From positions 1,638,001 to 1,702,000 of the forward strand of contig OX359199.1 in assembly GCA_947172415.1 (NCBI GenBank): DNA of 64,000 nucleotides, read 5' to 3'. Positions 2,988-64,000 of this stretch are shown here, in pieces (position 1 is the stretch's first letter; each line of letters opens with the position of its first letter). This DNA comes from Chondrosia reniformis. Lineage: Eukaryota > Porifera > Demospongiae > Chondrillida > Chondrillidae. A program made the position numbers and the translations under genes. The notes below the pieces were generated by a model. The model did not search any database, was not told where the DNA came from, and saw nothing but the letters and a program-made list of their open reading frames with translations.

Positions 2988-5900
2988 TCACTGAAGCTTC
3001 ATATAAGGATATACTTCATACAGTTGACTTTCTATCAAAGACCGCACAATAGAAAAGGTGGGCCTGTCTTCCCTGTTCAGACTCCAACATTTCAACATCA
3101 GGTTATACCTAAATGTGAAACCAGTATATTATAGTGTACTGCATGATGACTATACAGCCATTGATTATCTCATATTTACAGAGCAGGCTACATAATCCGC
3201 TGCAATCAGTTCAGCCATTTTGGTGGAATATACTAATGTATTTTTATCTATGCATAAGACATTGTTGATGAAAAATGAAGCATTCACATTAGGAAAATGT
3301 AGAAGTTATATATGCATACGACTGAAGTTATCAAATAATGATGGTGGATTAAGTCTTATGAAAACTAGGAATTGACATCAAAAACAATGGTGGATGGCAG
3401 ATTTACATGTGGGAGGATCTTCTATATAGCTTTTTAATACAAGAATGTGTGCCGTTAGGTGGATAAAGTAATGATGGCTATAGGTGGAGTGTCCTGCATA
3501 TTTATAAATTGACCAGTTGAATGATTGAAACAATACATATTTATATGTACGTATGTGCAGGTACATAGTGACTCACAATCTTTCATCACATTGTGTAGGC
3601 ATTTTCAAAAAGTGAGAGGTCTTGACATGATTCAATATTTCAGCATTCTCCAAATCAGGATAGGGAAAATGCCCTTTAAAATATATTAAATTTCCATCAA
3701 TTATACAGTTGCACAATTCACAAAGGTCCTTGACTTATACATATAAGACTACTGGAAATTCTATATTTGTAATGACTACATGCATCACTATACTAACTTG
3801 ACCAACTATTGTATATGTATAGCTTAATTGGGACTAAAATAGAGATATCGATGGAAACAGATTTTTTACATTGAAACCTTTAAAAATGGATGTCCATTTG
3901 GTTAATAGGAACAACATTATAATCATATATACATGCTAGATTTGACCATTTGTGTACCACTAATTTTGACTGACATAAAGCTTGTACGGTATTAATTATC
4001 CCATTGATCATTAGTGTGTAGCTAACAGGCAGGAAAATATGGCAAAGCGTGTTTATTTGTTGCAGTCGGAAAAGGTTAAGTTAGTGTGGTATATAGTTTG
4101 AGTGGCCTGGTCAAATTCATGATCAAGCATCACTAGCAAAGAAGTTTGGCATTTCAAAGTCATGCACTTGAATAAATACAAATTGTGCACGGCAAATTTA
4201 CCACAAATTATGTGCAATAGCTAATTAGCAGTAAAAACAAGTGGGACAGCCAATTAATGGGAATTTCCCCTCTTCTCACACAGCATTATGATTAACAAAA
4301 ATGGCAGCCAGAAGTGGGATGGGAATGAGACTACTTATTAACCAGCTTCTTCTGTATAGCATTTCTCAGTATCAGTTACAATATGCATATATGCGCACAA
4401 ACTATTTACCCATATACTGTATAACATATACATATATATATACATGATTGCCCATTTCTGAGTCTATACTTATATTTCTGGTATACAAACTGCACATATT
4501 GCACTTTATTGATTTACCTTCACTAAATATCTCCCACAAAGTTACACCAAACGACCACCTGCATTAAAATAGAACAAGACTGCTCATTATATACTGTACC
4601 TCTTTCAGTAAGTATAAACTTCATTTGTTACCAGAATAATAATAGTGAAATAAAACTATGCACCCATAATACATATATAAATCATCAAATACACCTATTG
4701 AAAAACTATCCCATCTAGGTGACGCTCGTAACATCTAGGTGACGCTCGTAACATCTAGGTGACGCTCGTAACATCTAGGTGACGCTCGTAACATCTAGGT
4801 GACGCTCGTAACACCTGGGTGATGTTCGTAACACCTGGGTGATGCTCATAACACCTGGGTGATGCTCATAACACCTGGGTGACGCTCATATATAACACCT
4901 GGGTGACGCTCATAACACCTGGGTGACACTCATAACATCTGAGTGATACTTATATAAACTCTCTGAGTTATTATCTTACACATCGGAGGCCTCGCTATAG
5001 GTATCATTCTCAAATGCCTCAGGAGCCATCCATCGGAGTGGCTTAGAGTCAGTGGGAAGTGGTTCAGTCACGTCTTTCTTTCCTTCTTCAAGTTGACAAG
5101 CAAATCCAAAGTCGCATATCTTGACTATGTCAGAGCTGCTCAGCAACAAGTTACGACAAGCTAAATCTCTGTGCAGTACACCATTGGAGATCAGGTATTG
5201 CTGTAAATATATAGAATCATAGTGCCAATGAGACCCATAATTGGTTAACGGTCAACATTATGCAGTCAAGTAAGGAGATGTAGTGGAGATCAGGTATTGC
5301 TTTAAATAGAATTGTAATGTAAACTCACATTTATATTAGTCACAGGTGCATGTGTCATTTACATGATCCTGCCTTACCATTCCTCTAGCAACTTGAAGGG
5401 CGTATTTCAATAACTGACTAGTTTTAATAGCAAATTGAGGTGATATATTTGGATTTCTATTCTCTTCCAATTCCAGTTTCCTCAATCTTACATATGATTC
5501 CTGGATACTTTTAAAATTCAACAGAGTTACTTCTGAATGTTCCTCCTCTTGGAACTGTGAATTTGAAATATTAAAGTAATCACTGGAAATTATTACATTT
5601 AAGTGATATATCAAAATCGTATATGTATATATACATGTAAATATCAGTTTTGTAATAATAGAGGGTGTGAGGAGGCTACAGTTTACACAAATCAGACCGA
5701 GTACTCACAGTGAAAAGACAATTAAGTATATGTGTGTGTAGTTGTCTGTTTCAGCATTAATTACTGATTAAGACTGGTTGGAAGGTACGACGTATATGTT
5801 ATACAGTTGGAAATAAAAGCAGTGTGTTTTGTATTATAGCAAAAATAGGAAGCATGGTGAATGGTAACTCAGAAACAGATGCATGAAAAATCCAGATATC

Positions 5901-7677
5901 ATTTTCCTACATGCTATATGCCTATCCTGTAAAAGAGCCTATAGGGGAACTAAACCTGAAGAGAGCTTTTGGATGAGGATACAGGAGTTTTTTCTTCTCT
6001 CTTTTCCCTTCTTTCATCTTCTTCTCCACTTGGTCAGACAGCCGTTTCTGGGAATTCCACCCTTCATCAGTGATCCTGGGAGTCTTTGTCTTTTCTTTAT
6101 CTTGATCCTCTGTAAATCCTTGGCTGTTACACTGTTGCACATATACTTTGATAGTTGAACGCTTAGCTAGACAAATGGAGTCTAACGAGATATCTTCACA
6201 TATAAAAAGGCAACAGTTAATTCAACTCACTTTTACCTCATCTCCTTCAAACTCCTGTAATAAGATATAATACTAATGATAATCACAATAACATTATAAT
6301 ATAAACTTATCCATTATACAAAGCATTAGTAAAATGTCTAAATAAAGTTTAACAATTAATGTTGATTGCAGCTTACTAGTTCAATAAGCTATCCAGCTAA
6401 GGCATAGAGTCAATCTTGGATGGAACACGTTTGTATTTCCCAAGACAAGAGTTAGTTTGGGAGTATGTTTGTTTGTTACAGTATAAAAAGTACAGATTTA
6501 TAATCTATTTATCATAGTCCTAATGCAATTATTAATTACTTTTAAAAATGAATAAGTCAATTTAACTTACTTTCGCAAAGGCACTTTGCCTAAGAATCTC
6601 AAGAAAGTTTCCGCAGTTTACAAGTTCCATAACTATCATGGCAGGAGCTTTCTCCAATTGAACACCAACAAGATGTACAATATACGGACACAAATCATTG
6701 GATAGGTTCTTCATAACTTTAGCTTCATTTACAAATGAGGCATATTGGTCTTCATCAGCTGCATCTAAAGTTACCGCACATGCATGCATATGAAAATATA
6801 TACCTTATAGCAGGAAAATTAGCGAGGTTTATTGTTCGCGATTTTCACGATTTGACCAAATTTGCGAAATTAAAACCATGAAATGTTCGATTTTGTATGA
6901 AGTGTGGTATAATTAATATATATCACATATGACTTGAATCAATTGTAAAGGTGATGATAAGTAAACATGAGTAGGCCTACTGGTGATATAACATTTATCA
7001 CTAGTTCAAGTGTGAATATAAGGTTTGTAACACCCCAGATATCACCAGGTTGCCCTGGTAACGTGATATATTAGCCATTATCTCATACTTCCACTAAAAT
7101 ATATTTACTCCACTCCACCTCTGCTTTGTATTATATTTTGGCTATAGCGCCTTGCCTCTGGGTTATAACTATATATTACATGTACATTACATATATACGT
7201 ATATACATATGTACATAGTGTGAGTATATATGCTAAATTTGTATACTGTTTTAACTAATACTATGTCCATTTTTCTAATGATAAACCCACCATTCAGCAG
7301 CTTAACTGCAACTCCTTGTTCTGTGTAATTTTTGAAATTAGTTAGTTTTGTTGGAGTAGATAAGGGACACTTTACTGTACAGTAATAAACAGATGAAAAG
7401 TTTCCGCTTCCAAGAAGTTTGAATTTTTGAGAATTAAACAGTTTAAAGGGAATCATCCATCTGTCCACTTCAGGAGGAATCTTAGTTTCCAGATAACTAT
7501 TGTAGCTGTAATTATTAGGATCAAAGAGGTGCTTGGATGTTGTTAAACTCAACTCCTACGAATACAGAGTTTTAAAACATTGTACACTATATTGATGTTA
7601 ATATTTCCTAAAATAGCCCTTATAATATTGTTAACATAAAAATGGATTTGATGAAATGTATGTATGTATGTATGTAT

Positions 7678-10700: not shown

Positions 10701-13700
10701 TCAATTTTGACCAGGCTAGAGTGAATGTTGTTCCTGGTTCCCAATGGAAACAAGCTGAGAAAGGGTCATCACATGTTGAAATTGCTTGACTTGGAGATGA
10801 GCGTCAAATCACTATCGCTGTGGCTGGAACCCTTAGTGGGAATCTACTGCCTTTCCAAGTCCTTTATGAGGGGAAAACAGAGGGATACCATCCATCAGCA
10901 GATTTCCCAGAGGAATTTGATGTTTGGCACACTCCCAATCATTGGGCCAATGGTGAGACCTGCATAAGATTCATCACCAACATTGTACTCCCATACATCT
11001 GTGCAACAAGGAAGGAACTTGGCCTTGCTGCAGAACATATGGCACTAGTCATTTTTGATAGCTTTAAAGGCCACCAAGGAGAAGAAATGAAGTCACTTCT
11101 ACTGAAGAACAACATTTTATCAGTGGTGGTTCTGAGCAACTGTACAGATCATCTTCAACCTCTTGATTTATCAGTGAACAAGGCACTGAAGGACCATTTA
11201 AGAAGAAGTTTCCAGACCTGGTACTCTGAGTAGGTTTCAAAGCAGCTGAAAGAAGGAAGGAAACCAGATGAGGTCATAGTCGACAATTGACTTTCGTTTA
11301 TGAAGCTACTTGGAGCAAGATGGATGACTTCTGCTTATGATTATCTTCACTCCAACTCTACAATTGTTTGTGGTGGCTTTGTTGAAGCTGGAAGCATTGA
11401 AGCTTTGGAAGAGCAAGTTGAAGATGAAAATACAGATGAAGATGAAGATCCTTTCAAAGACCTTGATTAATAAACATCTGGAAATGCATTGCACAACATT
11501 GCATCATCTATGTATACATTCTAATTAACATACCAGTAGGTGTCTATGTATACTCACGCATGTGTGTATATATGTGTGTCCATATAATATACTTACAAGG
11601 AGCGCTCATATGATCTGTAAGTTTAGATGCTGAGTCTTTAAAACCTCTGCATGTTGTATTATAAGCTCTAGCTATTACCTAATGGTACAGTAAAGATATT
11701 TACTTATATATAATAGAATAAGGATTTCTTCTAACTGCGTTGAACTTATATAATTATCTTTAAGATGGCACAGCACATCTTTCGACTCTATGAGCATCTA
11801 AAAACACAGTTTGTCTTGGTAAATCTTCTGGTCGAACATTTCGACCCTGAGGGTATTCTTCATCGACTGATGGATAGGATTTTTCGGTGGTCTGTTTATA
11901 GATACATTTTTCCGCTTTTTCAGTTCCTGTCACATGATCCACACTTCCTGTCACCCTAATTTCCAACCGGCATTCCTAGAAACGTTTTTATGCTTTCTCT
12001 CCTCTCCTCCTGTTGGAGATCATGTGATAGGAAGTGTGGATCATGTGACAGGAATTGAAAAGGGCAGGAAAAGGTGTCTATAAAAGGACCACTGAAAATC
12101 CTATCCATCAGTCGCTGAAGAAGATCCTCAGGGTCGAAACGTCCGACCAAAAGATTTACCAAGACAAACTGCATTTTTAGACGCTCAAAGAGTCGAAAGA
12201 TGTACCATCTTAATGATATTCACTTATATTTAGAGAAAGACATCAATTACCATCATATTAACATATTTACAGTACAATTTACTACTTGAAGGAGAGAATT
12301 AGACTGAGATTAAAATTAACATTGAATATTAAAAGATTAAATAAAGAAGAAGGGATCACCAGGGGATTATATATCATGTTACCAGGGCAACCGGGTGATA
12401 TCTGGGGTGTTATAAACCTTATACAGTCCTACCTCGATTATCCAGACAGTGTTGGGCAGACGTACTTTCGGAGGATAATTAATATATATCACATATGACT
12501 TGAATCAATTGTAAAGGTGATGGTAAGTAAACATGAGTAGGCCAACTGGTGATATAACATTTATCACTAATTCAAGTGTGAAATATAAGGTTTGTAATAC
12601 CCCATATATCACCCGGTTGCCCTGGTAATGTGATATATAAACATATATACAGGCATATACTTGTGACATATACTTCTAATTATGATGTTTTAGAATACAG
12701 TTCAGTGCATGATGGACGCATGCAAGCAAAGGCAACCATTTATAATTAATTACTTCAAATCTATATCCATTATTCTTTGGAGGAATATCTTCATATATTA
12801 AATTTACAGTTCTACCATTCTAGAGAAATAAGCAGAGAAAAAATTAATAGAAAAATATACAAAATGAATGACTTTTTGCATATCAGATATATGTACAACA
12901 CAATCAAGTTGGGAGAAACGTACTTGAGTGCGATTGGTTTCAAGATTAGCTACTCTATTAAAACCGATGTCGCTAATCCATAAACTACAGACATATCTAT
13001 ATGCTTCATATTTTTGTGGCAACTCAATTTCCAAAGTCAAAGTGTAAGTATCTTTCTCTTCATCATACGTCATGCTTGAATCACTTATATTGAAGTTCAC
13101 CTTGTAATTGATGGGTACTATGGGGTCAGAATGAAGCAATATGACGTACAAAATACACATGATAATATATGCATGTGGAAAAAAGTTAATTGCACAATGC
13201 CTGGACAAAGTTTAGGTTTTATCAAGAAAATACATGAGCAATTGGTAAATATAACAATTCCAGTTACTTTATTACTTACAGGATGATGTAATGCATAATA
13301 TAATTATGAAAGTATATATAGGGTATTTTAAATTATTAACAATTATTATTAACTCTACATATTTAGTTTGAGTATGCAATTACCTGGATACTCTAGCTGA
13401 ATTTTTTCAGAAATATTACATTCATTCACTAACTGCACTTCTGGTGGAGAGTGCCCAATATTGTTCATATCGAGATCATGTAAATCCTAAAAAATCATTG
13501 ACATATATACGTATCATCATCCCAAATGCTGATTGAATTATTGGTATACATAACCCAGTGCATATAGAATTATTAATACATATTTTAATCTATTAATATA
13601 CTTATCTTCAAATTATTTCCTTAAGATGCCATAATAAGTACCAATCACCAAGAATAATAATAATACATTAAAGTCACCATCACGACAATCAATCAAATTG

Positions 13701-17333: not shown

Positions 17334-17405
17334 AATAATTAGCCGTATATTTTCCTATATAGATCTTATATAGCTATATACTTTCGTTGCGTGACGTTTA
17401 GTGAC
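17334..17405. repeat. Boundary repeat also present at the duplication junctions
   Basis: Sequence from ATAATTAGCC through CTTTCGTTGCGTGACGTTTA recurs at about 35417-35480. It recurs again split by the CACTA-like insertion: left part at 58062-58086, right part at 63548-63585. It lies next to the ends of the duplicated RTK units and is a candidate recombination site. Confidence 0.75.
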
Positions 17406-29300: not shown

Positions 29301-32300
29301 ACTCACTCCAGGGATACTGAAAGTTTCAGAAATATTTGATTTACATCTTTCCAAGGTATCTCCTCTGTCTTGAATACCAATTAATTTAGCTTCAACAGAT
29401 GTGTTAAGCAACTCAGACACTAAAACAATTAACAGAATTGCATAATAATATCATTATCATTAAACTCTGGATATTACCCCTGCCCACTCAAATCCCCTGA
29501 GGAGCACAATGAGCTAATGGGTGGAACTGAAGTTTGCTTGATGGGAACCAGAGTCTCTCCCTAGCAACTCAAAAAGATGGTCGAGCCATAGACAACTATT
29601 TCGCTCCTCAGGGTACATGAGTGGGTAGATAAAATATCCAGAGTTCGTTGATGATAATATCAACGCTTTAAGATCAGCTTTAGATCTTAAAGTTTCCCTA
29701 TTTTTCCCCTAATTACCTTCCTTCCATTCAATGGTAATATTTGGATCAAGTCCTGCACTGCCGATGCCAGTTTGCTTAAAAGGTAACATATCCCTTACTG
29801 CAGAGATTATAAAGGTAATGTTGCAATATACATTTACTTCTGAGGCACTAGGTGTAATTCTAACCTCTATACTGGAGCTGAACAGTCTCAGAAGCACCAC
29901 ATTCATTCACTAGCTGTAGAAATACCTCTGGACACATGTCATCAATTGATACATCTAAAATATTGTCTTTTCCCAAAACCTAAGTATTAAATAAATAGGG
30001 AGGCAAGTTTAAATAAATTTTGTCTAAAGAGTTAGGATACATAGGATCTGCATGTAAAAGCATGGTTACTTTGTTAACGTAGTACATGACTTACAAGTAC
30101 ACACTGACATCATTTCCATAAAGGCTAATCATGGGCAGATCTAGATTATATTTGGGGCGTGCTGGGGTGTGACAGAGAAAGGGTGTGAGGCGATTTGGCT
30201 AGTATTTATGAAATATGGCTATAAACACAAACTCAAATTCAGAGGTTTTAGCAACCAAAGCACCCCCTTCCCTCACCCTAAATCTACCACTGGAATGGCA
30301 TTAATGATTAACCAGACACTGTGCCTGAATACATGAAGACACTTCCTAACTGTGTGTATGGTTTAATGATATAATGACTTGTATGCCTTATGTAGTCATC
30401 AAGCAATGGTGGTACTATAAGTTCTTGGTTACATATTCCAAGCAGTATATCATCTTTGAAGAAGGTTATATTACTATTAGTATTAAGTTGAATGTCATAA
30501 AAGTTGAGGCTTGCACATATAGAAATACAATATAAGTTATGATCAAGGGGTGTACAGTACTAGAAAGGGGTGTATACAGTACTAGAAAGGGGTGTACAGT
30601 ACTAGAAAGGGGTGTACAGTACTAGAAAGGGGTGTACAGTACTAGAAAGGGGTGTACAGTACTAGAAAGGGGTGTACAGTACTAGAAAAGGGGTGTACAG
30701 TACTAGAAAGGGGTGTACAGTACTAGAAAGGGGTGTACAGTACTATATAGAAAGGGGTGTACAGTACTAGAAAGGGGTGTACAGTACTAGAAAGGGGTGT
30801 ACAGTACTAGAAAAAGGTGTACAGTACTAGAAAAGGGTGTACAGTACTAGAAAGGGGTGTATATACAGTACTAGAAAAAGGTGTACAGTACTAGAAAGGG
30901 GTGTACAGTACGAGAAAAAGGTGTACAGTACTAGAAAAGGGTGTACAGTACTAGAAAGGGGTGTATATACAGTACTAGAAAAAGGTGTACAGTACTAGAA
31001 AGGTGTGTAATAGAAACTCACCAATAGCCAAGTAGAATTTCCTGATGTGATGATTGATACATTACTTCTTTGTTTCATTTCTTCACAGAGACTACTGCCT
31101 TCAGAATTGTCAGCCCCCGGATACATCACATGGATAGAATTGTCCTTCCAAATCATGAAGATGTCTTCTGGTTTTTCTGGCAGATTTGAACAATTACTTA
31201 GAGGACAGTTAAATTGCTAAACAATGAAATATAAAGTTGTCAATTAGTAGCAAGTTATGGCTGTATCGTTGACTAAGTGTTTGTATAATACTGTTATTAA
31301 AACAATGCCTTCATTGTACCTTGACAAAATTATAGCCATTTTCAATTACCTAATGTACTTAAAAATCTTTCTTTTATCACTACACATAGTACACATAGTA
31401 TAGAAATCTGGAATCCTTTAAAATTACAGTATAAAAATGCTCATTTATATTGGTAGTACGATATGGATATACTACTGCACAAGGTGAAAGGGGGCTTTCC
31501 TAAACTGAAACAACAGGCCCAAATATAATATCTCATTATGACCTTATTAAACTATTAATATTATCATAAAACTAACATGTTTCATTGACTATTTTCCTGT
31601 ATATAGACAACAATAATAATCAATGTAATGAATATTTAATGCAGATGAAACAACATACAGAAGTATAGGAAATGAGTAATGTTCTAGGTATTTGTGTTTC
31701 TATTTCATTTTTTAAATCTCAGATTTTACTAAGCTCCTGTAACTCAGTTTGCATCATAAAATTTTCTACAGTAAGAATGCCATAAAAGGATGTATGACTC
31801 ATTAGATAAACAAGGAGTTCGAGTTTAAAAAAACTCGTGGGGCGCCAGGCGCCCCTAAGTAAACTCGAACTACTTGGCTGCTTCTCATAGATATCCGGTT
31901 AAACCGATTTCCGATCGACTCTTGTTGGCCGTCAATTTTTCAAGGCCATATCTCGTAGAAAACGTTTTTACGCAAGCTTTACGTTACATAGTATTAGTAA
32001 GGGTGGTTTTTAAGTCCATTTCGTTCGTTCACTGTTCTACGCTAAGGAAGAGAAAGCTAATTTTAAGCTAGAAAACGAAAGCTAGCCGAACGTCCGCCAA
32101 GAAAGGACTTAGAAACAAAATGGGCATATCATCATAAAGTTTAGGGTATAAAACTCATTTTAAATTAAGGGATTTTTAATTTAGGCCTCCGTTTGTTAGA
32201 AAACAGAGGACAAAGTCTGCATATAAAAGGCCATAGGACTATAGAAAACCTATGGGAAATTTATATGCAAACAATGTGTTATATTGATAAAAAATTTCAA

Positions 32301-35439: not shown

Positions 35440-36001
35440 ATATAGATTTTATATAGCTATATACTTTCGTTGCGTGACGTTTATTGACCGAAGTCTGATC
35501 TTGGCTGGGGGACCGAAGTCCTATTAAGTTGGCAACCAGTGATCGCCTCCCAGTCATCCAAAGATGGAAAAAATTCATCAAAGAACAGTGCAAAGGCTAA
35601 AATGATCAGAAATAATCACAGTGATTATTTCTGATCATTTTAGCCTTTGCACAGGCTTAGTGCAATTAACTCCCTTTGTCATTGTGAGTGCTCAGTCTCA
35701 CTTAGACTGTAGCCTCCATCCTCACTTAAAATGAAACCACAAGTGTTTCACTTGTGGTGGATTTATAAGTGAGGGCAGTCATCCAATTTACAATCATTGA
35801 AGTGTACCACACTGATGAGCCCAAATGAGGGTGAAACAGCTGTCTGTGGTTCTTTGATGAATTTTTTCCATCTTTGGATGACTGGCCATGGGAGGCGATC
35901 ACTGGTTGCCAACTTAATAGGACTTCGGTCCCCCAGCCAAGATCAGACTTCGGTCACTTGGCTGGTATGGCGTAATACGTTCCAGTGATTATTTCTGATC
36001 A
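35440..36001. mobile_element. Palindromic element with embedded hammerhead, at the duplication junction
   Basis: Left arm from GACCGAAGTCTGATCTTGGC to about 35590 mirrors the right arm about 35850-35960 (GTTCTTTGATGAATTTTTTC ... GATCAGACTTCGGTC). A separate perfect ~31-bp hairpin (GTGCAAAGGCTAAAATGATC and complement) is centred at 35621. A nearly identical copy in the same orientation begins at 63548. The element lies exactly between the two duplicated units. The hammerhead sits just inside the right arm. Confidence 0.85.
35806..35850 (+). ncRNA. Type I hammerhead ribozyme
   Basis: Every element is in order and abutting: ACCACA (stem I, 5'), CTGATGA core, GCCC-AAATGA-GGGT (stem II, one G-U closing pair), GAA, ACA-GC-TGT (stem III hairpin with a 2-nt loop, A15.1-U16.1 pair), C35844 completing GTC at the cleavage site, then TGTGGT (stem I, 3'; six pairs). 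This fits the hammerhead consensus exactly; cleavage is predicted after 35844. The tiny stem III resembles hammerheads described in Penelope-like elements and retrozymes (family knowledge). Whether it is transcribed or cleaves is not shown. Confidence 0.8.
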
Positions 36002-45200: not shown

Positions 45201-48200
45201 TATTTGATTTACATCTTTCCAAGGTATCTCCTCTGTCTTGAATACCAATTAATTTAGCTTCAACAGATGTGTTAAGCAACTCAGACACTAAAATAATTAA
45301 CAGAATTGCAATAATAATATCATTATCAATAAACTCTGGGTATTACCCCTGCCCACTCAAATCCCCTGAGGAGCACAATGAGCTAATGGGTGGAACTGAA
45401 GTTTGCTTGATGGGAACCAGAGTCTCTCCCTAGCAACTCAAAAAGATGGTCGATCCATAGACTACTATTTCGCTCCTCAGGGTACATGAGTGGGTAGGTA
45501 AAATATCCAGAGTTCATTGATGATCGGCTTTAGATCTTAAAATTTCCCTATTTTTCCCCTAATTACCTTCTTTCCATTCAATGGTAATATTTGGATCAAG
45601 TCCTGCACTGCTGATGCTAGTTTGCTTAAAAGGTAACATATCCCTTACTGCAGAGATCATAAAGTGTTACTTTGCAATATACATATACTTCTGAGACACT
45701 AGGTGTAATTCTAACCTCTATACTGGAGCTGAACAGTCTCAGAAGCACCACATTCATTCACTAGCTGTAGAGATACCTCTGGACACTTGTCATCAATTGA
45801 TACATCCAAAACATTGTCTTTTCCCAAAACCTAAGTATTATATAAATAGGGAGGCAAGTTTAAATAAACTTTGTCTAAAGAGTTAGGATACATAGGATCT
45901 GCATGTAAAAGCATGGTTACTTTGTTAACGTAGTACATGACTTACAAGTACACACTGATATCGATTAAAGGCTAATCATGGGCAGATCTAGATTATATTT
46001 GGGGTGTGCTGAGGTGTGACAGGGAAAGGGTGTGAGGCGATTTGGCTAGTATTTGGGGCGAGCCTGAGCGAGCCCCACACTGACAAGTTAAACGCCGACC
46101 GCGTCTATATACAGTACAAGTTACAATATACTAAGGTAATCTAATATAATATAATATAATATAATTAATTCATATGGCTCCAAGAAAGGACTTAGAAACA
46201 AAATGGGCATATCATCATAAAGATTAGGATATAAAACTCATTTTAAATTAAGGGATTTTTCATTTAGGTCTCCATTTGGTAGAAAACGGAGGACAAAGTC
46301 TGCCTATAAAATGCCATAGGACTATAGAAAACATATAGAAAATTTATATTGAAACCAAGTGTTATATTAGTAAAAATTTTCAATTTGTCAGATAACTGTG
46401 AAACCGACATATATCATGGTACATGTATATGACAAACGTCTGGCGAAGTTTTGCTTAATTAAATGAGCAAAATAATCAAGATATAATGAAGAATTCAAGG
46501 TTACGATTGCGCAATCTGGTGATGTATTGTGATGTTTCTCTGGTGCGTCACCAACACCTCTCGTATGTCGCTCCGTACACATTTAGTGAATCTTGTGACG
46601 TTGCGAAAACGTCACCGCCTCGTTGCTAAAGAAGATCATCCCTTTGTGAACGGCTATGACAAGTCGACGCTCTCCTACGAGAAGGAGCTAGCGAACAGGC
46701 GAGTTGTAGCGAAGGTTAGATAAAGCGTTTTTGTATACGTCCCCGTCAAGTTTGAGGCAGAGTTTTTCCTATATTGATGCGAAAGACGGAATTCGTTTGG
46801 TCGACCGTATTACTTTGGTAATTGAAGCTCTGTCTTCTCTTCTTACACCTTTTGTTCATATTTTTACTTGTCAATGTGTAGGAATTAGGAGTGTTTGTTG
46901 CGATCATTATGAGAATAAAGCCTTGTTGAGCTTCAGGAACACGAATTTACTAATTTACTACTTGATATTCCCATTCCTGTATTACTGATGAAGACTTCCG
47001 GGTTGAAACGTCCAGAATTAGTAAATTTATGTTACTGATGTTCAACAAGGCTTTATTCTTATCCATGTGTGTACGTTTTCCATGTGTACAGTAGAATCTC
47101 ATAACGAAATTGCTCATAGTGAATGTCTTAAGTATAGTGAGGCTAATTACACTCAAGTACACTACACAGTGAAAGTTACTGGCAATATTAAAATTACAAT
47201 CAAGTACTACACAGTACAAGTTACAAATTTAAGAGGGCCAAGTGACTATACAATATTAAAATTACAATCAATAACTAGCTACACATGCAGTGCAAGTTAC
47301 AAATTTAAAGAGAACCAAGTGACCCCTAGGATAATCAGTATTTTAAACAGTACAAGACTTTAGTCACACTAGTACTGTTGCAGGCTTTGAAATCCTCAAC
47401 TACTGCATAGAGAGTAGTAGTTGATACAGATCATCCAATTGCAAGGTAGAACACATGGCCTACCAATTACCTTTTCACACCTTAGTATAGACTGAAGATG
47501 ATGCATCTGCATGCCATATATCAACAAAGGCTCCAGTATTAAAGGGGTCTCAGCTAATAACCACAGCAGATTTGATTTGTCTTGTGAGGGAGCTAAGAAC
47601 ACCGACGGTTGGTCGCATGCATTCACATAATCAACAGGGTTAGAGACCATTTTGTAACTTGTACACAAGGGACATAAAAGGCCAAGGCCTTTATATACGT
47701 ATGTGATGTCCCTTGTGTACAAGTTACAAAATGGTCTCTAACCCTGTTGATTATGTGAATGCATGCGACCAACCGTCGGTGTTCTTAGCTCCCTCACAAG
47801 ACAAATCAAATCTGCTGTGGTTATTAGCTGAGACCCCTTTAATACTGGAGCCTTTGTTGATATATGGCATGCAGATGCATCATCTTCAGTCTATACTAAG
47901 GTGTGAAAAGGTAATTGGTAGGCCATGTGTTCTACCTTGCAATTGGATGATCTGTATCAACTACTACTCTCTATGCAGTAGTTGAGGATTTCAAAGCCTG
48001 CAACAGTACTAGTGTGACTAAAGTCTTGTACTGTTTAAAATACTGATTATCCTAGGGGTCACTTGGTTCTCTTTAAATTTGTAACTTGCACTGCATGTGT
48101 AGCTAGTTATTGATTGTAATTTTAATATTGTATAGTCACTTGGCCCTCTTAAATTTGTAACTTGTACTGTGTAGTACTTGATTGTAATTTTAATATTGCC

Positions 48201-51200: not shown

Positions 51201-54200
51201 GCGCATCATGGATATACTAGAAGTAGGGATCGATGCGCCCAAACATAGAAGTGATGTGTGTAGTTAAGTTTCAGTATGCCACTTCTGCAATGTTAGCCTT
51301 ACCATATGATCACTTTCTTGTTTCGTTACTTTTTCTAGATATGATAGGTACTGTTGCAGGGACTGCCATCCCTACTTCTCATTTCATTTTTTAAATGTTT
51401 TTATTTACTTTATAATATAGGCCTATATTTGCCGTACGTCTTACCGTATGTTTCTATTACACTCTACAAAAATGGCTCCCGTTCAGCGAACAGCGGAATG
51501 TTCGCTGCATGCAGGTTCACATGCCTTCGTAGCTGTACTAAACGAAGACAAGTTACCAGTCATTCCTCTATTCAAGGTCCACAGGAACGACACTGAGTTC
51601 TGCCACCAAGAGGCTTCGCTGCAGCCAATTCAGAACCATTTGTTTGCGATCTGCGAATAGGAAATGTCCCAAAATGCAGCCTAACTATCCGAGTTTACGG
51701 AAGACCGCCTGGAAAGTGCCCTTCTGCAGTCAGCGCGCCCCTCCTGTTGTTCTCATGGCTTACTCCTTCCACTTCCGGTATTCGTTTCGCGGCGCCCGCC
51801 ATGTTTTTATTAGCTACTAGGCAGATGAAAATTATCACCGGGGACAACTCGCCAACAATCACTCCATGTACAGTGGCTCCCTTTGTCTCGCACACTTCAG
51901 ACACGTTCATTTCACTTGATTTCTCAGCCATTGCCGGGCCAATCCTCTCCACGTCTATCGTTGTACAGCTCACACTTCTGTTAACTGGCACCTTTTGGCA
52001 TCTTTCACGATTTCACCGCGCCGCGCAATGAACACCCTCCCAGTGGCGATTCAGGGTCACGCAGTCCCGACGCCGTCCTACCTCCATTTTAATTGCGAAA
52101 CGTCTGTGCGCTACGGCTACGGCGCACACCTACTACTCGCTCAGGCTCGCCCCCACGATGATTATCATCTGCCTAGTATATATATATATTATGGACATAT
52201 AATACATTTTAGAAGGTCAGTCACTGTGTAGGTATATAGGAATTAAACCTAGAGATCTTTCACCGGGAATGTATCACTAATCATTGAAGGATGGTACGCC
52301 CATACAAATACCAAGTGGTGCAGAAGAACAAAGATCCCTAAGTTTAATTTACCGGTCAATCTTATACAATAGACCCGTTGCAGTTGCGCAATATTAATGA
52401 CATAATTTTGACCGTCGGCCATCTTGGAGGACCTCCCACCATAGAGACTCGATAGCAATGTTTGCGCGAAGCATGGCCGAATCGCGAACGACGGTGAACT
52501 CATTACTCCCAGGTTATCTTGCGACGCTGAAAGAGCAGAAGGGGAAGCAGAGATACTTAGAGAAGCTCAAGATCCTTGATGGAGTCGACCCTTACAAGAT
52601 ATCAAAGAGCGATTGGATCGACGATGTCGATCTTTGGCCAGGCGTGACGTACATACACGTCGGGATGTATCTGCTCCTTGGTCCCAGCCCATACTCCAGC
52701 GAAGACCTGCTCAACTACAAGAGTCTTGCGAGCTATGTCAACTTTACCTCTGGATGGGTGAGGCAAATCCTGGTGAAAGTTATTGCTAACAAAAGAGTTG
52801 TCATTGCTAAGGTGAGCAGCTGCCTAACTGGCTAGTTACTTATGCACTGGAGTGTCACAGCTACTCATACACTGCTTTCCTGTTCACAGGTAAACCATTC
52901 AATGAAGATGAGCCAGAAGCCCCTCACACCATGGGTAGTTGCAGAAGAAAATGGAAAAATTGTTGCTGCACATTGTGATTGCATGGCAGGGCTTGGTGAA
53001 AGCTGCACACATGTGGCATCCCTTCTTTGGGCCATTGAGTCTGGAGTACGCATCAGGGACTCCATGACAGTCACTGAGAAGAAGGCCTACTGGGTGATCC
53101 CTAGCGCAGTGAAGGAAGTGCCTTATGCCCCAGTCCGACTAATCAACTTCGAAGGACGGAAAGGGAGTCTTGCCAAGCTTGCATCCCCTCAATGTCAGGC
53201 ACAAAAATCATCAGATTCTGCAAAGGCAACTACGCCCAGCACTGCAGACAAAGCAAAATTTATGCAATCCTTGGCATCATGCCCATCTAAGCCAGCAATT
53301 CTAGCACTCATTGAGCCGCATTCAGGTGATTACATTCCAAAGTCTGCAGCTGAAGCTCTGCCTGTGTGTCTCACCAATCTTTATCAACCAGAGTACCTCA
53401 AACTGAATTACAGTGAACTGCTGCAGAAATCGGCACAGATAAAAATTGCTGTAAGCCCGGAACAAGCACGTCTTGTGGAAAGTAAAACTAGGGATCAAGC
53501 ATCGTCACGGCTATGGTTCAGAATGCGTGCGGGTAGGATAACTGCCTCTCGCTTCAAGAGTGCTTGCTGCACAGATGTTGCATCACCATCACTGAGCCTG
53601 ATTATGGCAATATGCCATCCAGAAACCACCAAGTTCAGGAATATTGCTACCACTTGGGGATGTGAGCACGAAAAGAATGCAAGAATTCAGTACCAGGAGA
53701 TCACTGTAAGCCGCCATGAGAACTGTGATGTGACCAAGTGTGGGTTTTTCATCAACCCGGAATACCCATTTGTGGGTGCATCACCTGATGGTCTGGTCAC
53801 TTGCTCTTGCTGCAGTGAAGGAATCTATGAAATTAAGGTACATACACATGCTCATACATCTATACATGACATTCTACAATGCACAGTGTACATTGCATTC
53901 TTATCTCTTAATTGCTTACACAATTAGTTTGTTTTTCCTTTTGTGCAGTATCCATATTGCCACAGAGATGAATCGATTGGAAGTGCCGCTGAAGATCCTA
54001 CTTTCTGCGTGCAAGTCCTCCCTGATGGAAAGCAACAACTAAGGCGCAATCATCCTTACTATTATCAGGTATGAACATGTATATAGGTGTAAACAGAAAC
54101 TTAATACTGTGGACATTAACACTATATCATGGTCTCTATGTACAATCTCTTGTGCTAACACATGCAGGTACAATGCCAGTTGTTCTGCACAGGACGCACC

Positions 54201-56750
54201 TATTGTGACTTTGTAGTGTGGACAGAGAATGACATTATCATTGAACGACTGTACCCAGACATGGACTTCTGGATAGAAAATGTGGAGAAGTCAAGGCTGT
54301 TGTTTGGGAGAGCAATTTTGCCCGAATTAGTGGGAAGATTTTTCTCTCGCCCATCACCAGTATCTTTGCGTTCATCCTCAGTGCAGGATCAAGATTTAGC
54401 AGATGATTGCACCATGGACTTTGAGTGTCAAGAACCCCGCTACTGCTATTGCCAAGGACCAGATGAGGGAGAAATGATTGGATGCGACAATCCAAGTTGC
54501 CCATTTCAGTGGTTCCATTTGGTGTGTTTGCAGCTTGCTACAGCACCTACATCAAAGACATGGTACTGCCCAGACTGCTGAAAAGTCAAGACACAAAAGG
54601 GAAAGGGAACTAAGCGCAAGTGACATGCATACTTTGTGTTGTTTAATTTCATGCAAGGTACTGGCACCTGTGCTTGCAATGTACATTGATTCATTTTGAC
54701 TGATTATGTGATACCATAATAATAACAGCAGTAATTGGGTGTAAATAAATGTAACAGCAATTATTCAAATGGCACAACAGAGTCACATATGTTGATCAAT
54801 GCACAAGCGACACAAACAATTTTATCCAAGGTGCAAACTGATTCGTCTCCAGTGGTAGTTACAAAATCAATTGGCTGTGTGCCGCTGAGGAGCGAATACT
54901 TCTGACGTATGTTACCTATAACACGTTCAACGTGAATACGAATATTAGCTATCCTCCTGGTCTGCTCTACCTCAATGCCACTTAGTTGCGTTTTCCCCCT
55001 TGTAAATACAGGAAGTTTGAGTTCTGCATAGTAGGAGCCGACTGAATCCCTTATATCAAATCCTCTGTCTGCAAGTACTGTGTCACCTGGAAGCAGGTTG
55101 CGTAGCAGACCACTGTTTTCCGTCAAGTGTTTGTCACTCACTCTGCCTCCCCAACCTTCAGAAATAAAACTGACAGTCCCTTGTGGCGTGATTTCAATTA
55201 AATATTTTACAGTATTGTGGTGTTTATAAGATGAATAGGTTTGCGCTCTAGCAAGGAGGTTAGTTGGACGTTCCAGAAATATCTCAAAACAATCAATAAT
55301 CACCATACAATTTGGGCTATGTTTCCTGAAATCCATAGGCATTGTCTTACGAACAGCATCTCTCTCCGGCCATACAATCAGATGTCTCAGCTTATCATAT
55401 AGCATGTTAATGACAAACAAGAAAGTGCGGCTAACAGTGGACTTGTGCACGCGGAATCGATAAGCAAGGTCTTGCCCTGACAAATTTAGCCGTAGTCTCA
55501 TCAATGTAAGCAGCAATTGCTGAAAAGGTGTCAAGATAGCTCGCTGCATCAAATCATGCTCAACATATTCAAAAAGAACGAACAACAACTGCCAACAACT
55601 CAAACCAGTATAAAACTTTACTTTCTCATCGTTGCCTTTGAAACTATCCTCATGCATAACAAATTCATTCCTCTCACTGCTCAGCTGCTGTACCTCTTTT
55701 TGTAAGCGGCCAACCTCCTTGTCCACTGCATCCTTCATTACCTGCAACTTCCTGAGTTCTTCCTCCAAGGCAGCTATGTCACTATGAGTAAATATAGTCT
55801 GCACTTCTACACCTTGCTGAAGTTCATCTTCGGAGGAGTCGCTGGCAACACTAACTTCCGCACTTGTCCTCTTCATTGCACATCTTCTCTTAGCTCTAGC
55901 ATACCTTTCTTTCCCGTCACTGACTTTCACGCTATGTCCCAAGTTCAACGACGGCGCCCAGTCCTGATTCGTGGTGTCATACAGCAGCGCTGGTTTCCCT
56001 GTTACGAAGTGGTTGGAACAAACCCGAACGTTCCGATAACCCTCCGGCTTCAGGTCTTCCCTGCGAATTCTGGCTATCCATGCGTCCCGACGCCTCTTAC
56101 TCAGCTCGTAATCCTCCTCACCGAGGTGCGTAACAACTGCAGGTAGCCGAAAGAAGCTCCTTCCGTCGCCTTTCTTCGCCTTATTCGCGCAACCGACAAC
56201 CGCACAGAAGTTCACCATTGTTACGGGACGCACTATGGTCCTCCAAGATGGCCGACGGCCGATTTTGACGTCATAACCACGCCTACTGCAACGGGTCTAT
56301 AGATCTTAGATTATAGTATTCTTCAAATAAATCGTTCGACGGACTTTTACATTTTCAATCTTAATCTAGCCTTAGTACGTGATCTATAGATTTCTGAGGT
56401 AAATTTTAATGACTGCAACTTCGACAATAGGCTCTGTGGTTAAATGATAGACAAAAAGAGTTAAATTTAAAAGGACTTACTTCCCCAATGCAGCAGTTTG
56501 CTACGCAGTCCGATGTATCGGTGTTCTAGGATAAAGAGAGAATATTACTATAAGTTATAAGTAGTTTAAATATGTCAGAATATCTACGCACGCGTCATAT
56601 TTAACTACTCACCAGAGACGTACATCTTCCTCGGCACAGTAGCTCCGAAGTAGTAACTGTATTAGAACACGAGGTTATCGGGATACTTCCAATCTGCTGA
56701 GGCTTTAAGAATAGCAGAGAGATACTTAAAATAAGCACATAATTCGTCAT
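36201..56750 (-). CDS. RTK-C: receptor tyrosine kinase, 22 exons, 960 aa
   Basis: Exons: 56750-56613, 56525-56481, 49761-49567, 45830-45716, 45647-45567, 45287-45175, 44490-44428, 43777-43696, 43273-43074, 42822-42754, 42615-42531, 41601-41450, 41089-40942, 39854-39700, 39330-39057, 38783-38590, 38418-38344, 38242-38051, 37735-37515, 37187-37147, 37042-36946, 36348-36201. Same architecture as RTK-B: signal peptide, FN3-type ectodomain, membrane helix, and split kinase with [11 protein letters not shown] and APE. The only coding length changes are +15 (43074-43273), +15 (40942-41089) and +6 (39700-39854), all in frame; the +6 falls just outside the membrane helix. Introns 2 and 3 have grown to 6.7 and 3.7 kb by transposon insertion, but splice sites are intact. 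Predicted functional; no ligand inferred. Confidence 0.88.
40330..40445. mobile_element. Pogo/Tigger-like MITE, duplicated copy
   Basis: Paralogous to 24490-24605, with the same TACAGTTGAACCCTGTTAAG end and a few substitutions. Present before the tandem duplication. Confidence 0.7.
44637..45046. mobile_element. TIR element with nested MITE, duplicated copy
   Basis: Paralogous to 28773-29176, with outer ACAGTACAAGTCAAAAGT ends and inner GAAAGGGTCATCTTTCGAC ends. The inner arms are better matched here than in copy 1. Confidence 0.8.
45333..45515. mobile_element. Palindromic MITE, duplicated copy
   Basis: Paralogous to 29466-29646 in the RTK-C intron. The internal GATGATAATATCAACG stretch downstream in copy 1 is shortened here. 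Confidence 0.7.
46985..47013 (+). other. Hammerhead-like core, probably not complete
   Basis: CTGATGA, one A, a weak hairpin GACTTCCGGGTT, GAA, ACGT, C matches core, stem II, loopless stem III and GTC. No adjacent stem I can be drawn; only a distal inverted repeat (AATTTACTAATT and AATTAGTAAATT) brackets it. Confidence 0.35.
47109..48272. repeat. Near-perfect large palindrome, ~575-bp arms
   Basis: Arms 47109-47688 and 47697-48272 are inverted copies with almost no mismatches. Identical predicted peptides read out on both strands (47396-47722 minus and 47713-47985 plus). The centre is AAAGGCCAAGGCCTTT-like sequence. In copy 1 the related segment 33040-33652 has one arm only, with the loop in the opposite orientation. 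Confidence 0.92.
48344..48532 (+). CDS. 62-codon ORF of unknown function in element alpha
   Basis: ATG at 48344 opens [20 protein letters not shown] and ends in a stop at 48530. The paralogous ORF at 51472-51660 in element beta differs by one residue (Thr to Ala) and two synonymous changes. The region is distinctly richer in G+C than its surroundings. No domain recognised. It may be an exon fragment picked up by the element rather than a gene. Confidence 0.3.
   Translation: MAPVQRTAECSLHAGSHAFVAVLNEDKLPVIPLFKVHRNDTEFCHQETSLQPIQNHLFAICE
49385..49550. repeat. Intronic minisatellite, 20-bp unit, ~9 copies
   Basis: Same unit as 30544-31005 but a much shorter array. It is in RTK-C intron 3, just before exon 49567-49761. 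Confidence 0.9.
51035..51415. repeat. Palindrome with ~175-bp arms
   Basis: AAAACATTTAAAAAATGAAA...CACATCACTTCTATGTTTGG mirrors CCAAACATAGAAGTGATGTG...TTTCATTTTTTAAATGTTTT, with a ~35-bp centre containing CTAGAAGTAGGGATCG. Embedded in element beta. Confidence 0.9.
51472..51660 (+). CDS. 62-codon ORF of unknown function in element beta
   Basis: Same product as 48344-48532 with one amino-acid change. Weak evidence for coding; see that entry. Confidence 0.3.
   Translation: MAPVQRTAECSLHAGSHAFVAVLNEDKLPVIPLFKVHRNDTEFCHQEASLQPIQNHLFAICE
52458..54581 (+). CDS. SWIM / YqaJ-exonuclease / PHD protein of the ISL2EU element
   Basis: Exons 52458-52811, 52890-53837, 53949-54068 and 54168-54581, all phase 0 (611 aa). 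The SWIM zinc motif CDC...CTH is at 147-159 (CxC-x7-CxH). The YqaJ-like nuclease region lies at roughly 325-510, with [45 protein letters not shown] (the EIK codons close exon 2) and the [12 protein letters not shown] helix. Asp in SPDG and the E-x-K pair are the expected metal-binding residues. The C-terminal PHD finger (CYCQ...[16 protein letters not shown]...WYCPDC) spans about 563-611. YqaJ proteins are lambda-exonuclease-like; the role in this transposon class is presumed DNA end processing. The start is the first ATG after the terminal repeat. Confidence 0.88.
54761..56233 (-). CDS. THAP-domain DDE transposase of the ISL2EU element
   Basis: Single 490-codon ORF, no intron. The THAP zinc finger starts at the second Met (residue 6, [10 protein letters not shown]): Cys10, Cys15, Cys72 and His75 form the C2CH set, followed by DWAPSL. 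A coiled coil is likely at about 152-196. The catalytic domain (DDE_Tnp_4 type) shows Asp314 in VIIDCFEIF, Asp389 in LADRGFD and Glu436 in HVERVIG, all present, plus a helix-turn-helix [14 protein letters not shown] before them. It is intact and thus potentially active. Convergent with the YqaJ gene, with 180 bp between stops. Start choice between Met1 and Met6 is open; THAP proteins usually start right before the first Cys pair. Confidence 0.92.
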
Positions 56751-60200: not shown

Positions 60201-63011
60201 GTGATGGAGAAGGAGAGTCTCAGCGATGACCTCTTTAACCCTCAGTCATCTGGTCCCGAAAGTGACACGGACCCGATCGTGACTGGACCAATATCTTTCT
60301 CAGAATACCAGAGCATTAGCAGGAGCAAATTTGGACGAGTTTCTACGCAGTCATACATCCTACAGACTAGTGATCCAAGCTCTAGTGACGATGAGGATGT
60401 ACCTACAAATTCTATGAAGAAGAGACAGCTTCAGAAATTGAAAGGGAAGTGTCCTGCAAAAAGCAGGAAAGCTTCACCACCAGTGACACCTAAGACAACA
60501 CAGACGAGACCCAAGATGACCCAGACAAGGCCCAAGATGACCCAGGCAAGACCCAAGACAACCCAGGCGAGGCCCAAGACGTCCCAGGTGAGACCCCAGA
60601 CGACCCAGGTGAGACCCAAGACGACCCAGGTGAGACCCCAGACGACCCAGGTGAGACCCCAGACGACCCAGGCGAGGCCCAAGATGACCCCAGCACCCAG
60701 GTCAACCCTAACTCATGTGACCCCCAGTAGCACACCTACTCCAGAGCTGCCCAGTGACACACTTGCTCCAGTGCTGCCCTGTGAAACACTTGCTCCAGTG
60801 CTGCCCTGTGACACACTTGCTCCAGTGCTGCCCTGTGACACACCAGCTCCAGAGCTGCCCAGTGACACACCAGCTCCGGTGCTGCCCTGTGACACACCAG
60901 CTTCAGTGCTGCCCTGTGACACACCAGCTCCAGTGCTGCCCTGTGACATACTTGCTCCAGTGCTGCCCTGTGACACACCAGCTCCGATGCTGCCCTGTGA
61001 CACACCTGCTCCAGTGCTGCCCTGTGAAACACCAGCTCCAGAGCTGCCCAGTGACACACCAGCTCCGGTGCTGCCCTGTGACACACCAGCTTCAGTGCTG
61101 CCCTGTGACACACCAGCTCCGATGCTGCCCTGTGACACACCTGCTCCAGTGCTGCCCTGTGACACACTTGCTCCAGTGCTGCCCTGTGACACGCTTGCTC
61201 CAGTGCTGCCCTGTGAAACACTTGCTCCAGTGCTGCCCTGTGACACACTTGCTCCAGTGCTGCCCTGTGACACACCAGCTCCAGAGCTGCCCAGTGACAC
61301 ACCAGCTCCGGTGCTGCCCTGTGACACACCAGCTTCAGTGCTGCCCTGTGACACACCAGCTCCAGTGCTGCCCTGTGACATACTTGCTCCAGTGCTGCCC
61401 TGTGACACACCTGCTTCAGTGCTGCCCAGTGACACACCAGCTCCGGTGCTGCCCTGTGACACACCTGCTCCAGTGCTGCCCAGTGACACACCTGCTTCAG
61501 TGCTGCCCTGTGACACACCAGCTCCAGTGCTGCCCAGTGACACACCTGCTTCAGTGCTGCCCAGTGACACACCAGCTCCAGTGCTGCCCTGTGACACACC
61601 TGCTCCAGTGCTGCCCTGTGACACACCTGCTCCAGTGCTGCCCTGTGACACACCTGCTTCAGTGCTGCCCTGTGACACACCTGCTTCAGTGCTGCCCTGT
61701 GACACACCTGCTTCAGTGCTGCCCTGTGACACACCTGCTTCAGTGCTGCCCTGTGACACACCTGCTTCAGTGCTGCCCATGACCAGTGACACCCCACAAG
61801 GTTTGCTACAGTAAACATAATACTATAAAACTAGTGCATAAGTGTTGTCTTGCAGCATGAATAGGCCTGCAGTGATTTGTTGCCTTTCACTGAAATGCCT
61901 CTCTATCATTTAGTTCAACTGCGGGGTGACTCATTTGTTCTTCAGGAATTTGTGAAGACTAATCAGCTCCTTGCCAACTTAATGGAAGGTGTGCAGTCAA
62001 TCATTTGTCGTGTGACCGCTTTGGAGGATAACGTTGGTAGCAGCAGCACTAGCAGCAGGGCTCCTCAAACTCAGAAGACTCCTTGGATTAAGGATGTTCC
62101 ACTTGCTGTTAGGGTAAGTACCCTTTTGCAAAGCATGGGTACATGTGACTGGCTAGTGACATCTGAGAAGAACTCCCAGTGATGCAACTTAGCTAGTTGA
62201 ACAGCCCTTTTCAACATGCATGTTGCAAGGACCATTGACTATATACATTTGTATATGGTTTGTATAATATGTCTGTCTATATTATATGTGTGTACATGTG
62301 TCACTCCATTCCTGCAGAGAGAAACAAGAAGAGTCTACAACATGCTACGTACAGAGGATGATGATTTCAATGGCTGGTTGATTGCTCCTGGGTAAGAGTA
62401 CACGTGTTGCATTAAGGACTCCACACCTAAATGTGTAAACCAAATGCTTAAGTCCTTGTATGATCACACTTCAGGATCACGTTTAAAACTGGGGCCAACC
62501 AGACTGTGGCAAATCGTCTGGTGCAGGAGGTGAAAGGGCTCAATTCAGAGTTTTTATCACAACATATCACTGGTAAGAACTCTAAAAGATAGCTATAGTA
62601 TTCCCTGATATATTTTCTTATGTGCTCCCCATGTATGTAGATGCAGTATACAGATTTTATAAAAGTACTTGTGAGCAGATGTCTGTGCAACGACGTGGCA
62701 AACAGCCAATGAAGCAAACACTTCAGAGGAGGCGTGAGCGACTGAATAGGGTACGTAAATGTCACTGCATGTATGTATATTCATAAAAGTACTATATTAT
62801 GGTTATGCTTGCTTAATGTGCAATTTATCTTTGTATACTCTATTGAATTACTTAGAAATTACAGGAACGAAATGCTGCTCTTGACAAAATGACATTTTCA
62901 GAAGAAGGCCAGCGTGAGAGGTGGAAACCGGCAATCCATATAGATATGATGTCTAGTGAGGACAGTGCTATGGAAGGTGATTGCGGTGAAGACTCTGCCA
63001 TGGAGAAGTAA
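60201..63011 (+). CDS. Second ORF (cargo) of the CACTA-like element, repeat-rich, 745 aa
   Basis: Exons 60201-61800, 61914-62113, 62318-62391, 62475-62572, 62641-62750 and 62856-63011; phases 1, 0, 2, 1, 0 match at every junction. Residues 1-90 are acidic/Ser-rich, then ~12 TQxRPK hexapeptides (Lys/Arg-rich), then ~37 nonapeptides DTPAPVLPC. Exon 2 begins VQLRGDSFVLQEFVKTNQLL and looks helical. Later exons are basic (RRRERLNRKLQERN) and may bind nucleic acid. An alternative C-terminus in another frame (to a stop at 63157, ending PAWLFKD) looks coding but could not be joined. Family not recognised. The position suggests an accessory protein of the transposon; no transposase domain is seen. Confidence 0.65.
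60735..61785 (+). repeat. Coding minisatellite, 27-bp units (~37 copies)
   Basis: 27-bp units encode DTPAPVLPC with variants LAPVLPC, PASVLPC, PAPELPS and ILAPVLPC. Higher-order periodicity is visible: blocks containing PAPELPSDTPAPVLPC and then PASVLPC recur three times, showing block duplications. The array is free of stops in several frames on both strands, which generates 340-360 codon shadow ORFs. Confidence 0.95.
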
Positions 63012-63547: not shown

Positions 63548-64000
63548 TATATAGCTATATACTTTCGTTGCGTGACATTTATATAGTGACCGAAGTCTGA
63601 TCTTGGCTGGGGGACCAAAGTCCTATTAAGTTGGCAATCAGTGATCGCCTCCCAGTCATCCAAAGATGGAAAAAATTCATCAAAGAACTGTGCAAAGGCT
63701 AAAATGATCAGAAATAATCACAGTGATTATTTCTGATCATTTTAGCCTTTGCACAGGCTTAGTGCAATTAACTCCCTTTGTCATTGTGAGTGCTCAGTCT
63801 CACTTAGACTGTAGCCTCCATCCTCACTTAAAATGAAACCACAAGTGTTTCACTTGTGGTGGATTTATAAGTGAGGGCAGTCATCCAATTTACCATCATT
63901 GAAGTGTACCACACTGATGAGCCCAAATGAGGGCGAAACAGCTGTCTGTGGTTCTTTGATGAATTTTTTCCATCTTTGGATGACTGGGAGGTGATCACTG
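63548..64000. mobile_element. Hammerhead-bearing palindromic element, second copy, cut by window edge
   Basis: Begins with the right part of the boundary repeat and then matches 35480-35905 with few differences, including the GTGCAAAGGCTAAAATGATC hairpin. The right arm is truncated at base 64000. Confidence 0.85.
63908..63952 (+). ncRNA. Type I hammerhead ribozyme, second copy
   Basis: ACCACA, CTGATGA, GCCC-AAATGA-GGGC, GAA, ACA-GC-TGT, C63946 (cleavage), TGTGGT. It differs from the 35806 copy inside the motif only at the last base of stem II (C instead of T). That turns a G-U pair into G-C, so pairing is kept. Confidence 0.8.

Follow-up and report, generated by a model that had tools for sequence, protein, structure and literature searches.

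Palindromic hammerhead retrozymes of the sponge Chondrosia reniformis: insertion ends suggest mobilisation by Penelope-like elements

The locus and its hammerhead ribozyme

The stretch of DNA analysed (the window) comprises 64,000 nucleotides of the genome of the demosponge Chondrosia reniformis (assembly GCA_947172415.1, contig OX359199.1, positions 1,638,001 to 1,702,000); coordinates are counted from its first letter. Duplicated kinase genes around a palindromic element had been predicted from the letters of the window, and both were recovered: Pfam PF07714 was found on exons at 4979, 21672 and 37514, and inverted arms could be mapped on both sides of the hammerhead. The retrozyme and Penelope-like insertions of the window are given in Table 1. 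Other open frames are a 511-codon frame on the minus strand (54761-56296) with THAP, HTH_Tnp_4 and DDE_Tnp_4 domains, which represents a DNA transposase-like gene, a frame with a YqaJ-like recombinase/exonuclease domain (52836-53927, plus strand) and a long frame consisting largely of short repeats around PVLPCDTPA (60201-61814, plus strand), where long open frames exist also in another frame and on the opposite strand. Perfect or near-perfect inverted repeats at 35588-35652 and 11916-12062 gave weak matches to microRNA families; these were far below the gathering scores and were treated as chance.

Table 1. Retrozyme and Penelope-like features of the window. Unit positions refer to the retrozyme monomer, the base that follows the cleavage point being position 1.
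Feature	Position	Strand	Remarks
Short insertion of Penelope-like family N	5882..6125	-	own hammerhead 6070-6037; 3' end at the usual stop of family N
Family B retrozyme insertion, head-to-head	29450..29711	.	outer ends at unit 141 (site 1) and 200 (site 2)
Left inverted arm	35485..35586	-	unit 107 to 5; outer end at neither usual start site
Inner part of left inverted arm	35588..35619	-	unit 167-136
Right arm	35619..36001	+	just over one lap of the 359-nt unit, from unit 134 via the cleavage point to 152 (start site 1)
Hairpin between start sites	35647..35665	+	TTGCAC-AGGCTTA-GTGCAA, conserved among compared copies
Start site 2 motif TTTGTCA	35675..35681	+	unit 196, internal in copy 1
Extended stem I	35794..35860	+	nine further pairs, TCATTGAAG (35794-35802) with CTTTGATGA (35852-35860)
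Type I hammerhead ribozyme, copy 1	35806..35850	+	predicted cleavage after 35844; G-U pair at the base of stem II
Duplicate of family B insertion, in the next copy of the kinase region	45319..45561	.	
Duplicate of copy 1 insertion	63585..64000	+	runs beyond the window end; hammerhead 63908-63952

Hammerhead structure: The complete type I hammerhead of the original prediction lies exactly where it had been placed, with the same predicted cleavage point. Stem I (ACCACA/TGTGGT, 35806-35811 with 35845-35850) is followed by CTGATGA, stem II and GAAA. Its six pairs are as predicted, but the helix extends past an internal loop (TGT/T) by the nine further pairs of Table 1, two of which are G-U, and this extended helix recurs in the circular fold of one monomer of retrozyme family A (see below). 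For stem III, formerly described as three pairs with a loop of two nucleotides, two pairs capped by an AGCT tetraloop are the better reading. The same form of helix III is found in the axolotl hammerhead HHR_Amex2, which is likened to invertebrate ribozymes in the available text of PMC7229834; the axolotl unit is a different one, and the hammerhead described here is known from sequence alone.

The second copy keeps its pairing, as had been stated, with G-C where copy 1 has G-U in stem II. The Rfam models recognised copy 2, which passes RF00163 (gathering score 34) with 34.6 bits, whereas copy 1 did not reach that score in the Rfam scan. At E ≤ 0.1 the only model reported over copy 1 was RF02275 (35795-35866, 24.8 bits, gathering score 52), one lower-scoring match of the clan being omitted. 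The low score of copy 1 is most likely due to the replacement of C by U in the closing pair of stem II. Among 100 exact matches of family A, this position is C in 88, T in 9 (including copy 1) and A in 3; the U in the G-U pair of copy 1 is probably the derived state.

The core pattern CTGANGAGN{8,16}GAAACAGCTGTC has 311 matches in the 117 Mb genome, compared with none for the reversed control; thus, the hammerhead is not a product of chance. Among the RF00163 matches listed, which do not include the window copies, 51 of 65 exceeded the cut-off, mostly from family B. Three stem pairs are changed on both sides between families A and B. Since the 119 ribozymes count overlapping loci repeatedly, pairing was evaluated with the 26 distinct sequences on one pattern: 94.6% of the stem cells were paired, compared with a mean of 89.5% and a maximum of 91.7% after shuffling. 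These paired changes represent largely one evolutionary split, and one locus (L012) has only part of them. At the level of its sequence, the type I hammerhead motif is real. Eight degenerate hammerheads, identical over 30 matched bases, all on the minus strand and tens of kilobases apart, were noticed at C3:6946126-7242814; this array is perhaps a large tandem segmental duplication.

Retrozyme units and their outer ends

Units: Hammerheads of family A, to which the element in the window belongs, occur head-to-tail at three loci (L039, L040, L041) with monomers of 358-362 nt, and a monomer spacing of 354 nt was found for family B at one locus (L028). The units of the two families align over their whole length at about 61% identity. 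One monomer each was examined: the GC content is 44.3% (A) and 45.2% (B), the longest stop-free runs are 65 and 57 codons, respectively, i.e., the units are non-coding, and the circular folds have z values of about -6.3 against shuffled sequence in both families. The available text of PMC7229834 describes metazoan non-LTR retrozymes with which these elements share a type I hammerhead with intact core (copy 1 itself being below the gathering score of RF00163), head-to-tail repeats of about 170-400 nt (the window copy holds little over one unit), a GC content below 50% (the value in the text there; family B is just above the stricter 45% of the legend to Figure 1), the absence of coding capacity, strongly self-paired RNA (here a predicted fold), target duplications of more than 4 bp (the window element has no clear one) and the coexistence with hammerhead-bearing Penelope-like elements (PLEs). 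Head-to-head palindromes with two favoured ends, as found here, are undescribed there, supplement aside. In contrast to PLEs, which encode a reverse transcriptase and a nuclease (PMC3846280, available text), the retrozyme unit encodes nothing; neither a reverse transcriptase nor a GIY-YIG nuclease was present. The assignment of the host element to the non-autonomous, non-coding retrozymes of metazoan type is well supported by these sequence features.

Mapping of ends: Copies were mapped on their own unit; excluded were elements with fewer than 200 matched bases, those no more than 60 bases from the edge of a locus, and repeats whose flanks were identical, which stem from overlapping loci. Loci had been selected for holding a hammerhead, which at least one arm per element therefore had to pass, and they represent part of the known copies (31 loci of family A, 29 of family B and further matches to family B and to the core pattern stayed outside). 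The 72 mapped elements were reduced to 66 distinct ones by removal of six that were judged duplicates from their flanks; for three of the six this judgement rests on 12 shared words, and they may be independent.

In 48 of the 72 elements both outer ends are RNA 3' ends, i.e., the arms are head-to-head; 24 have one such end, and none has two 5' ends. Outer 3' ends are concentrated in two windows of the unit (144-158 and 188-202 in family A; 136-150 and 190-206 in family B), which contained 95 of 109 outer 3' ends and 6 of 23 outer 5' ends of the distinct elements. The favoured ends are separated by about 44 nt in family A and about 55 nt in family B. A conserved hairpin lies between them; in family B it reads CTTTAAGATC-AGCTTTA-GATCTTAAAG, with a loop similar to that of family A (Table 1) and a different stem. 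The 43 two-sided elements comprise 29 whose ends occupy different windows, 13 with one end outside the windows and a single one with both ends at site 1; a pair of site 2 ends did not occur. Hence one site per arm was found in 29 of the 30 fully classified head-to-head elements (P = 2.8e-8 if the choice were independent). This count is not a blind test, since the windows were fixed after mapping and are wider than the first values for family A (150-157 and 192-197); seven of the 29 mixed elements belong to a diverged subfamily whose site 1 ends lie at 145-148, and are included solely by virtue of the wider window. The loci added later (L074-L093) provide a partial check: their 13 two-sided elements of family A comprised nine mixed ones, four with one end elsewhere and none with both ends at the same site, eight of the nine depending on the wider window. 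The family B insertion in the window, which lies outside the hammerhead selection, ends at both sites as well. Arm lengths range from 31 to 1782 nt, and the junctions differ between elements.

Flanks: Direct repeats of at least 8 bp flank 34 of the 72 elements, compared with 2.2% after the left flank of one element had been paired with the right flank of another; these repeats may include a few element bases, and some are AT-rich simple sequence. With a slightly different scoring of distinct elements, such repeats were present in 23 of 29 mixed two-sided elements versus 4 of 23 one-armed ones. Clear examples are AGTCTAGCAT (L044), ATATCTACAT (L045), CTAATGGCAT (L056) and GACTGCAATT (L058).

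Arms: The 48 two-sided elements, with duplicates counted, gave 82 classified arms. The cleavage point is passed by 60 of these, a number inflated by the choice of loci for holding a hammerhead, and 32 are longer than one unit. The 22 short arms all end more than 5 nt away from the cleavage point. Arms of more than one unit cannot stem from a cleaved linear monomer; a circle or an uncleaved multimer can give them, and, since uncleaved tandem RNA also yields long arms, they do not prove a circular template. Differences between the arms of one element overlap with those between elements, and the two arms may or may not stem from one RNA molecule.

The element in the window: The two copies share about 35 bp of left flank in addition to the right flank, and they are therefore one insertion that was duplicated; two independent insertions are ruled out. 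The right end at 36001 corresponds to site 1, and the right flank matches an element-free stretch from 20182. The left end, at unit 107-109, is not at 196, and the left arm includes a jump; its inner part was presumably reached by a change of template. No clear target duplication was seen at the ends of the element. Since the left flank matches 17335-17405, about 2.8 kb from the start of the right-flank match, the insertion was either accompanied by a deletion or is located at the breakpoint of a duplication. The window element is an untypical member of a clear family. The family B insertion at 29450-29711 is old, with arms of about 91% and 81% identity to the reference and no clear flank duplication at its ends. 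A weak family B match in one orientation (72%, units 52-191) at 8116-8246 is an old fragment.

Penelope-like elements of the genome

Two families, P and N, which we take to be Penelope-like from their domains, their hammerheads and known features of the group, are represented by at least 41 (N) and at least 44 (P) matches among the matches listed. The earlier remark that no reverse transcriptase was in sight holds for the window but not for the genome, which has Penelope-like loci, among them L070 with a frame carrying RVT_1 and GIY-YIG domains. In family N (L061, L071) GIY-YIG stands ahead of the rest of the frame and the hammerhead is fuller; RVT_1 was not matched in the pieces of family N examined. 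A protein search with a PLE frame yielded mostly unnamed matches; the named ones came mostly from animals, and two had the name of a bacterial metagenome.

A signature matching that of the retrozymes is seen in family P. In all four compact head-to-head insertions examined (L068, L095, L096, L097), which had been chosen since both arms appeared in the search outputs, one arm ends at query positions 159-164 and the other at 194, which is the end of the family P query. Flank repeats of 11-12 bp are present in L095, L096 and L068, and L097 has no direct repeat at its ends. In two wider pairs, about 2 kb apart (C13:2947064/2949013 and C6:4755163/4757169), both arms match to the end of the query; here the tail may be internal to a longer copy.

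In 11 of 17 alignments (10 distinct places), copies of family N stop 156-160 nt downstream of the cleavage point, the others being cut at locus edges, diverged or of full length. The head-to-head pair of family N in L045 has its ends at 1069 and 1072, which is the same place; thus, family N does not follow the two-site rule. It is at most a possible helper; its short copies end at one site. The hammerhead of the short family N insertion in the window (Table 1) was absent from the Rfam results at E 0.1.

Sequence kinship of the retrozyme tail with families P or N was looked for, and nothing beyond short matches, e.g., AGTTCCCCTAT, was obtained; one strong match at the edge of L066 resembles an old head-to-head retrozyme fragment. 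An abundant degenerate satellite built on ACTAGTTGTATGT flanks many loci, e.g., L060, L069 and L085, and several retrozyme and PLE insertions sit within it.

Mode of insertion

Two adjacent start sites, with a tail on one arm only, were found in 29 of 30 fully classified two-armed retrozymes and in the four compact insertions of family P, the window element and PLE family N being exceptions. This is regarded as a Penelope-type signature because it matches known PLE reactions and inserts, as far as the available texts of PMC11167929 and PMC3846280 describe them. With a purified PLE protein from Anolis, cleavage and extension of both strands were observed, the starts lying at two neighbouring sites inside the RNA (PMC11167929). 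An inverted pseudo-LTR characterises the typical Penelope insert, which is known from flies and fish as well; one inverted repeat may carry a tail of 31 bp, and target duplications in rotifers are 8-10 bp, with some inserts having none (PMC3846280). The retrozymes resemble these inserts in their head-to-head arms, in duplications of 8-10 bp in several elements and in the extra tail on one arm. With the Anolis Poseidon element in vitro they share cutting and extension of both strands, two adjacent internal starts and a nearby hammerhead; they differ in that mostly one site is used per arm, whereas the start sites were equal between strands in bulk there, where unprocessed RNA was the dominant template (PMC11167929). 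In the titles and abstract openings searched, a coverage that takes in few subscription papers, no description of a two-site signature in retrozymes was found. The original prediction had mentioned retrozymes and Penelope-like elements among known hosts of hammerheads, and this was to the point.

It appears very likely, although short of certain, that the retrozyme is copied via RNA and that the palindrome is the scar of an insertion by Penelope-like machinery, which extended both cut strands. Tandem copies would be transcribed, and the hammerhead would presumably cut the RNA into monomers of about 359 nt, which a host ligase might close into circles. A PLE protein, of a family that could only be named as a candidate, would take the circle as template and cut both strands of the target about 10 bp apart. 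Each 3' end would then be extended from an internal RNA site, site 1 (about unit 152) serving one strand and site 2 (about unit 196) its partner. Both cDNAs would reach variable lengths, frequently exceeding a full lap, and would be joined to give a head-to-head palindrome between short direct repeats.

Movement by a LINE, with palindromes formed by twin priming, is unlikely. Inverted copies do arise by twin priming, and LINEs often have simple repeats as 3' tails, which would agree with the position of site 1 of family B inside a short ATG repeat belonging to the unit. LINEs are also named as possible helpers of retrozymes in the available text of PMC7229834, beside PLEs as a strong candidate. 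However, after twin priming a constant 3' end would be expected opposite an internal end of variable position, whereas both ends are mostly constant here and about 44-55 nt apart, and no added poly(A) was seen at the element ends inspected.

Snap-back self-priming, in which the cDNA folds back and copies itself, was proposed for PLE palindromes (PMC3846280, available text). The arms of L003, L047 and L058 are identical over their overlap (0 mismatches), as self-copying would produce. Matching outer ends would be expected, however, and in 29 of 30 elements they differ by the tail; moreover, the arms of L055 differ by 6.3%, compared with a median of 2.1% between young family A elements, and come probably from different templates. 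This origin of the palindromes is therefore considered very improbable.

A similarly small probability is given to the formation of palindromes from tandem retrozyme arrays that recombined or were duplicated in inverted orientation once inserted. Local duplications are common in the region of the window, and the flanks of the window element match places 2.8 kb apart; on the other hand, 23 of 29 mixed elements have flank repeats on the outer sides of the complete two-armed unit, from which it follows that both arms arrived together.

Hardly credible is, finally, the DNA-MITE architecture of the original prediction, i.e., a transposon with terminal inverted repeats which captured a hammerhead and was moved by a transposase: the window copies are palindromes of one structure with long inverted arms, a DDE transposase-like frame lies in the window and duplications near 10 bp occur in some transposase families, but the two window copies are one duplicated event, related copies lack constant terminal inverted repeats, their arms and junctions vary, tandem arrays and one-armed copies exist, and the outer ends map to two RNA positions instead of a terminal repeat common to both ends.

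Mobilisation of the retrozymes by PLEs is thus probable, as judged from the analysis of insertion ends, with the PLE family as a candidate only. In the available texts, retrozyme repeats are said to show no conserved motif indicating a helper element (PMC7761336), and the helper is likewise left open in PMC11722881. A wider notion, which may be right or wrong with about equal chance, is that animal retrozymes are SINE-like partners of PLEs: in an insertion reaction common to both, the two subunits of a reverse transcriptase dimer would dock on a structured RNA element whose start sites flank the conserved hairpin, each, beginning at its own site, would extend one target strand along circular RNA, and head-to-head palindromes tailed on one arm would be the normal product and not an error.

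The insertion ends together with the duplications, as found in this one genome, provide a concrete fingerprint, which can be sought in the retrozymes of corals, mussels or salamanders and tried with purified enzyme. The insertion ends suggest that the palindromes arise by a paired two-site reaction and not by self-priming.
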